Assembly: GCA_018985225.1 (NCBI GenBank) | Contig: JADGIF010000028.1 | Span: 1 to 33,183, forward strand | Direction: 5' to 3' | DNA length: 33,183 nt | Source: Amoeboradix gromovi | Lineage: Eukaryota > Sanchytriomycota > Sanchytriomycetes > Sanchytriales > Sanchytriaceae | In this document: piece by piece, positions 27,747-28,470 of the stretch | Position numbering within the stretch: the first letter of the stretch is position 1 | How the letters are laid out: each line of letters begins with the position of its first letter | Notes under the pieces: model-generated | Databases searched by the model: none | Seen by the model: only the letters and a program-made list of their open reading frames with translations | What the model was told of the DNA's origin: nothing | Translations under genes and position numbers: made by a program

Positions 27747-28470
27747 TCAAGTGGTCATAAACAATGTGAAAACTCCCTTTAAATAACCTATAATTTCATT
27801 CGTACCTAGCTTTGACTCTCCAAATACTCTGTCTACAAACGTGATAGGTACCTAAATAAAACTGAATTACTTCTCCAATTGTATATCCTAATTCTCTAGC
27901 TCGAACCATCATTTCCATTTGAAATACATAACCCTTGGATTTGGTAGCAGTTACCAGTTTCTCCAACACTGGTCTCTTATATAATCTAAAAGATCCGGTC
28001 AAATCACTAACGTTGGGATTTAACAAAATAGTAGCCAAAAAATTAGCACCGCGACTCGTTAACTTACGTTTCCAATCCCATCCATGAATACCACCATCGC
28101 TGTGGTATCTTGTACCAGTAATTATGTCATAATTAAAAGTGATAGCCATTTTGATCATTTTAGGAATGAACTTGGGATGGTGTGAGAAATCAGCATCCAG
28201 TATGACTACATGTGTACCAGTAGAAAACTGCAACCCATAAACATATGCAGTGCCTAGACCCAACTTGCCTTTTCTATGTTTAACAATGATATTCTCATAA
28301 ATATTAGCCAACTTTTCTGCAATTTCACCTGTTCCATCAGGGCTACCGTCATCAATGATAATTATTTCATAGTCTAGGTTATTCTTTCTGAATGTACGGA
28401 TAAGCAAAAGAATAATTATTGGCAAGTTCTCTTTCTCGTTATAGGTAGGTAAAAGAACTGAGATTTTCAT
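27747..28470 (-). CDS. DPM1: Dolichol-phosphate mannosyltransferase, with one 19-nt intron
   Basis: Makes dolichol-phosphate-mannose at the ER for N-glycans, O-mannosylation and GPI anchors. GT2 motifs: [13 protein letters not shown] at the start, [11 protein letters not shown], the DxD block [10 protein letters not shown], and [17 protein letters not shown]. Unspliced, the frame leaves the family pattern after GYTIGEV and stops at 27796. Taking out 27852-27870 (GT...AG) gives a seamless [17 protein letters not shown], and the frame goes on to TLFMTT and a stop at 27747: 234 residues, the length and end of human-type Dpm1. No C-terminal membrane helix is present, so Dpm2/Dpm3 partners would be needed, unlike in budding yeast. 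Exons: 28470-27871 and 27851-27747. Confidence 0.95.
27852..27870 (-). other. Ultra-short spliceosomal intron (19 nt) in DPM1
   Basis: GTAATTCAGTTTTATTTAG, between GAA and GTA codons. Canonical GT and AG ends, a T-rich interior, and no room for a standard yeast branch-point box. Its removal is required to restore the conserved C-terminus of DPM1. Confidence 0.85.

Follow-up and report, generated by a model that had tools for sequence, protein, structure and literature searches.

Evidence for a 19-nt spliceosomal intron in DPM1 and for introns of 19-21 nt throughout the genome of the sanchytrid Amoeboradix gromovi

The DPM1 gene (dolichol-phosphate mannosyltransferase subunit 1) of Amoeboradix gromovi, a tiny fungus parasitic on algae, is interrupted by 19 nt that very probably represent a genuine U2-type spliceosomal intron, one of a population of introns of 19-21 nt that extends over the whole genome of this sanchytrid. 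Judged from genomic sequence, a probability of about 0.95 is assigned to this reading. The gene lies in the window, the whole 33,183-nt stretch of contig JADGIF010000028.1 that was analysed (Table 1). To our knowledge, this would be the first fungal case of uniform ultrashort introns; the open-access literature yielded no report of introns of about 20 nt in fungi, nor of sanchytrid introns. The introns appear to be among the shortest known from any organism.

The DPM1 gene and its probable intron

Without splicing, the DPM1 frame is broken: read from the start at 28470, it forms an ORF of 224 amino acids with a stop at 27796. Removal of exactly the 19 nt 27852-27870 (GT...AG) yields 234 amino acids and a stop at 27747, the last 34 residues being the conserved C-terminus. 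In all 11 aligned fungal homologues, truncated close relatives apart, the sequence [GA]E[VI]PI[TSA]FVDR[VL]YGESK runs over the junction free of gaps, and the sequence-only reading, which had proposed that this excision restores the full-length protein, is borne out. Compared to most aligned homologues the spliced protein lacks two residues, at a place away from the junction. Its match to 5mlz, a solved structure of dolichol monophosphate mannose synthase, covers residues 1-231; among the Pfam domains the stronger, PF00535, stops before the junction and the weaker, PF13641 (E 2e-9), covers it. A single-nucleotide sequencing error was rejected as explanation of the break: with one G dropped the reading becomes EVIQFYLVPITF, with six extra residues that are absent from 11/11 aligned homologues.

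The intron has the layout GTAATT-CAGT-TTTAT-TTAG and fits the genome-wide motif described below. With TTTAT it carries one of the weaker forms of the branch box, T at position -7 being present in 5/32 catalogued introns. None of the ab initio coding parses, with or without a motif bonus, called the DPM1 intron; the last exon comprises only 105 nt. The assignment rests on homology and motif, by which the gap is by far best read as a spliceosomal GT-AG intron of 19 nt. The earlier assertion that an intron of this size leaves no space for a normal branch-point box is not supported, as a TTTAT box with A at -6 is present and the U2 snRNA of the genome has an intact GUAGUA. The conclusion drawn from it, that the spliceosome must be unusual, is not forced by missing signals once a branch box is in place.

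Table 1. Features of the window
Feature	Position	Strand	Basis
DPM1 gene, ATG to stop, 1 intron	27747..28470	-	ORF list, spliced translation, homologues
DPM1 exon 1, 600 nt, 200 codons	27871..28470	-	spliced translation
DPM1 putative intron, 19 nt, gtaattcagttttatttag, phase 0	27852..27870	-	sequence; motif shared genome-wide
DPM1 putative 5' splice site GTAATT	27865..27870	-	sequence; 32-intron catalogue
DPM1 branch box TTTAT (branching presumed)	27856..27860	-	sequence
DPM1 presumed branch A	27857	-	position 14 of 19, -6 from 3' end; A at -6 in 31/32 introns of the motif-assisted catalogue
DPM1 putative 3' splice site TAG	27852..27854	-	sequence; 32-intron catalogue
DPM1 exon 2, 105 nt including stop	27747..27851	-	spliced translation
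U2AF small subunit (U2AF35/U2AF23), one open frame	21632..22642	-	best PDB match 4yh8, U2AF 23 kDa subunit, E 3.5e-69
LSm6 (U6 snRNP), one open frame, 71 aa	29293..29508	-	similarity searches
Tudor-domain protein, possibly SPF30/SMNDC1 (weak)	29527..30066	+	Tudor below Pfam cut-off

The window also contains dispersed repeat copies (3889-4050 and 13821-14013; 4230-4257, inverted with respect to 33156-33183, intergenic and at the contig end), possible remnants of mobile elements. Three short ORFs (7374-7679, 13452-13826 and 14463-14954) resemble C2H2 zinc fingers by eye and possibly belong to an expanded family.

Probable short introns across the genome

Gene parses covered 239.9 kb of stretches, the window, and the snRNA and proteasome loci. 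A motif-free, 3-periodic Markov gene parse was given the end dinucleotides only and allowed gaps of up to 150 nt. It placed 13/32 GT-AG gaps at 19-24 nt, compared to 0/31, 2/38, 3/35, 2/34 and 1/30 for five control dinucleotide pairs. A laxer penalty on gaps reduced the contrast, to 14/32 for GT-AG against 2-11 for seven controls. Several control gaps fell on the same junctions as GT-AG gaps, and the total parse score of GT-AG was not the highest (3808 versus 3778-3844 for the controls; 3819 versus 3733-3857 with the laxer penalty). GT-AG gaps above 24 nt (18/32 in the first parse, up to 150 nt) had scattered lengths and were no more numerous than in the controls. The motif-free parses included the mitochondrial stretches L013 and L027, which were excluded from the motif-bonus parse and all later work. 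In the motif-bonus parse, 30/46 gaps in 289 kb of nuclear sequence had 19-21 nt, versus 2/44 with a mirrored motif, a count that is partly circular because the donor and branch bonus was trained on 16 examples (L055, DPM1 and calls of earlier parses) most of which were also counted. Gaps of 15-18 nt were not called in these 289 kb at a permitted minimum of 15 nt.

The sequence-only reading had proposed a scan of the genome for short GT-AG gaps that restore proteins, and about 30 of them are now catalogued in the 289 kb. For the catalogue, DPM1 was added by hand, a nested 19-nt intron replaced a 34-nt call in L057, and the call L056:1424 was dropped, which reads as the natural C-terminus of a G-beta protein. 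The 32 entries comprise 18 introns of 19 nt, ten of 20 nt, three of 21 nt and one candidate of 25 nt. Their A+T content is 77 %. The common architecture is GTAWTT, 4-6 nt, a YTNAY branch box with A at -6, N and [T/C]AG; fungal branch boxes resemble YTNAY. At the 5' side, A at +3 is invariant (32/32), followed by T at +5 (26/32) and T at +6 (28/32); at the 3' side T at -8 (31/32), A at -6 (31/32), Y at -5 (32/32) and T at -3 (28/32) prevail. While the 31/32 for A at -6 derives from the motif-assisted catalogue, a motif-free set, 15 gaps of 19-25 nt from the laxer-penalty parse, has A at this position in 12/15. G at +5 is absent from the catalogued (0/32) and the motif-free (0/15) gaps, though ACAGAGA is retained in U6; a change at the 5' end of U1 is possible.

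The motif was also counted without any coding model. In 6.78 Mb, GTAWTT-N4-6-YTAAY-N-YAG had 186 matches versus 10 for the reversed pattern, while with a spacing of N7-36 the numbers were near background (122 versus 109). The length distribution is thus narrow and has no long tail. Among the first 100 of the 186 matches, 60, 29 and 11 have 19, 20 and 21 nt, the only lengths the pattern permits. Twelve of these 100, spread along the list, were taken blind to coding. Nine gave an open 100-codon frame and a positive coding score once the motif was removed, and a tenth, L066, ran into an apparent natural C-terminus; L065 and L069 had no open 300-nt spliced frame. The same frame test in the nuclear stretches analysed was passed by 8/14 motif matches versus 47/5100 other GT...AG segments of 19-21 nt; the other 6/14 had no open 300-nt spliced frame. 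Some of the matches that failed the test lie near gene ends. Extrapolated roughly, and for scale only, 30 introns per 289 kb correspond to the order of 700 in 6.78 Mb, and the DPM1 intron is probably one of several hundred. Intron density and the lack of longer introns were judged on the 289 kb plus the pattern counts. Among the N7-36 matches listed, the 29-nt sequence GTAATTTGAGAGCTTCACATTTAACGTAG recurs at no fewer than 11 places (at least nine exact, two with one change), and at three of these a contig begins no more than 60 bases away; it probably belongs to a dispersed repeat at which the assembly breaks, and is not an intron.

Twenty of 31 spliced loci were picked as likely recognisable and searched against Pfam, and in 16 of them the alignment spans the junction. 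From the Pfam families, we take these genes to be EF2, G-alpha, SAR1/Arf, adenylate kinase, PSMA4, PSMA6, G-beta, a kinase, thiolase, DPM1, dynamin, an MRG/MSL3-like chromo domain protein, GH31, an ion channel, a TBC domain protein and PTEN-C2. The remaining four had no clear junction-spanning Pfam domain: PSMB3, in which the domain ends at the junction, L004, in which only a weak HEAT_2 match crosses it, L010, and the proteasome gene L049. A proteasome search gave 11 matches that were read as nine genes, two of them split across two matches; five (L049, L052, L054, L055 and L057) were read as intron-bearing.

Relatives, splicing machinery and competing explanations

In a protein search with DPM1, the best 120 of 7933 matches above the cut-off were led by the unspliced ORF of the organism itself (P0001), followed by P0002 (EukProt, 85 % identity) and P0003 (ENA, 83 % identity); the next 117 homologues had 64-70 % identity. 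P0002 and P0003 derail directly after GEV, the same place as in unspliced DPM1, with different tails. Relatives were compared as proteins, and the tails were back-translated and fitted to the intron motif at lengths of 19-21 nt, a loose test that depends on degenerate codons: P0002 fits 20 nt only, P0003 19 nt only. A second gene behaves similarly. The PSMA6 intron of A. gromovi reads GTAACTAAAACTCATATAG, and the proteins P0121 (its own EukProt entry, 100 % identical) and P0122-P0124 from relatives stop near the junction, at 186-192 amino acids versus 237. The tail of P0124 fits an intron of 19 nt only, that of P0122 any length. The tail of P0123 fits only with an intron start at another phase, so its intron site may differ by a few bases.

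Components of a spliceosome were identified. U2 snRNA (102 bits) and U6 snRNA (65 bits) were found with branch-binding GUAGUA and ACAGAGA intact, respectively, and the U6-binding domain of Prp8 lies within an open frame of 2233 amino acids. U2AF35 and SPF30 had been named before as present in the window. The former is indeed encoded in the window; for the latter a Tudor-like match stands, but it is below the Pfam cut-off and the PDB match (E 8e-4) is only to an uncharacterized protein. Rfam searches in 6.78 Mb of the approximately 10.5-Mb genome gave no match for U1 and U5, the U5 search being silent also in every control genome. Slu7, Prp18 and SF1 had no match in the same 6.78 Mb, nor in any of 14 control genomes. 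In yeast, Slu7 and Prp18 are dispensable at short distances between branch point and AG.

The break in DPM1 could be explained in other ways. The alternative already raised from the sequence is a 19-bp insertion flanked by a 3-bp GTA repeat, which would leave a truncated protein. Taken as a target duplication, in a pseudogene or a polymorphism, it draws its appeal from the GTA at the start of the segment that occurs again right after it. Such an event would be specific to one lineage, but P0002 and P0003 derail at the same site with different tails, and EF2, G-alpha, proteasome and other genes contain the motif at an identical spacing (186 versus 10 matches genome-wide). With a break common to relatives and a motif spread over the genome, we reject the insertion as highly improbable. 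Errors of assembly or amplification that produce false short insertions come to mind in view of the source assembly, probably a single-cell SPAdes assembly after whole-genome amplification by MDA (PMC8371127), but such errors would not follow a common GT...YTNAY...AG grammar, and would not turn up again in relatives at, or close to, one site. This origin is the least probable of those considered.

Segments that are short, AT-rich (77 %) and uniform in length might also be excised at the DNA level, like the IES of ciliates, and be missing from the genome that is expressed. Such elimination of DNA is not known to us from any fungus. A branch box complementary to U2, held at a fixed spacing between a shared 5' motif and the AG, argues against such elements, as does the presence of U2, U6, Prp8 and U2AF35, and we give DNA-level excision as little credit as the insertion.

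For the spliceosomal intron, we infer that splicing actually takes place, where the branch lies and in which order the signals are recognised. The intron would be recognised as a single short unit. Its 5' site would be read by U1 and afterwards by U6, GUAGUA of U2 would pair with the branch box, and U2AF35 and Prp8 would take the AG, whose G is located five nt downstream of the branch A. The resulting lariat would consist of a 14-16-nt loop and a 5-nt tail.

Ultrashort introns in other lineages and consequences for sanchytrids

Introns of comparable size are described from the nucleomorph of Bigelowiella natans, with 865 introns of 18-21 nt, and span 18-23 nt across four chlorarachniophyte species (PMC6461891). 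These share near-identical lengths, a spliceosomal nature and the conserved U2 GUAG and U6 ACAGAGA with the sanchytrid introns, but are reported without obvious 5' or branch motifs, whereas the sanchytrid introns have GTAWTT and YTNAY in rigid spacing (PMC6461891). They reside in a relic endosymbiont nucleus, the present set in a fungal nuclear genome; U1 and U5 are shrunken in the Bigelowiella nucleomorph, and were not found here in 6.78 Mb (PMC6461891). The mikrocytid Mikrocytos mackini has introns of 16-17 nt, which resemble the present ones in the very narrow length range, the conserved sequence and the parasitic host, but are 3-4 nt shorter and belong to a rhizarian (PMC10245619). U2, U4 and U6 snRNAs were identified in mikrocytids, and U2 and U6 also here; mikrocytids have a strongly reduced metabolism and spliceosome, whereas the present fungus has a mitochondrial genome (PMC10245619). 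Like the 15-16-nt introns of the heterotrich ciliate Stentor coeruleus, the sanchytrid introns have a near-fixed branch A with a 5-nt tail behind it and a canonical U2 GUAGUA; Stentor differs by a 10-11-nt lariat, the lack of a strong branch consensus and a host that is a free-living giant cell (PMC9505925). The 15-17-nt length of mikrocytid and heterotrich introns is not matched here, as the motif-bonus parse has no gaps of 15-18 nt. Short introns of Trichomonas have 23-25 nt (PMC12316389). Known fungal introns are U2-type as well, but mean lengths of 63 nt in Cryptococcus neoformans and of 397, 426 and 469 nt in others are nothing near 20 nt in the available part of that source (PMC8476143).

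The published proteins of the two sanchytrids, from single-cell SPAdes assemblies, were called by TransDecoder as ORFs straight from the contigs, and in the text of that study the word intron occurs once, in a reference title (PMC8371127). ORF calling without splicing would thus truncate intron-bearing genes in the published sanchytrid proteomes and in EukProt. Database proteins cut at the putative introns were found for two genes, DPM1 and PSMA6 (EukProt entries P0002, P0121 and P0124). Databases built on unspliced sanchytrid ORFs may hold many half proteins, and conclusions on gene loss and rapid evolution could be skewed by truncated proteins. The nuclear sequence analysed has a GC content of 36.1 %; published values are 36.27 % for A. 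gromovi, with a mitochondrial genome of 27,055 bp and 30.69 % GC, and 34.64 % for the other sanchytrid, with 24,749 bp and 25.86 % GC (PMC8371127). Contig C366 is mitochondrial, with 27,236 bp, about 30 % GC, a 99-bp terminal repeat and, by eye, cox1-, cob- and nad-like frames. Corrected for the overlap, its 27,137 bp are close, not equal, to the published 27,055 bp; the number 27,236 is also printed in Table 1 of the study as pre-decontamination N50 of A. gromovi (PMC8371127).

A wider reading is offered tentatively, and we hold it to be rather doubtful: sanchytrids may have independently compressed practically all of their nuclear introns to 19-21 nt and, in parallel, remodelled the splicing machinery, with U1 and U5 shortened or altered and Slu7, Prp18 and SF1 lost. 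The loss would be permitted because the branch A is always five nt from the last intron base, and 5' sites without G at +5 would point to the altered U1 and U5. If true, the fungi would include a minimal spliceosome that works by intron definition in one unit.

In the introns themselves the 5' and branch signals are kept, unlike in nucleomorph introns, so the minimal spacing tolerated by a spliceosome with a standard U2 GUAGUA and U6 ACAGAGA could be taken directly from the sequence: the branch A follows the first base at 13-15 nt, and the last base follows the branch A at 5 nt. With the ultrashort state known from three distant lineages, the sanchytrid introns would test if genomes under compaction converge on a single minimal form of intron.
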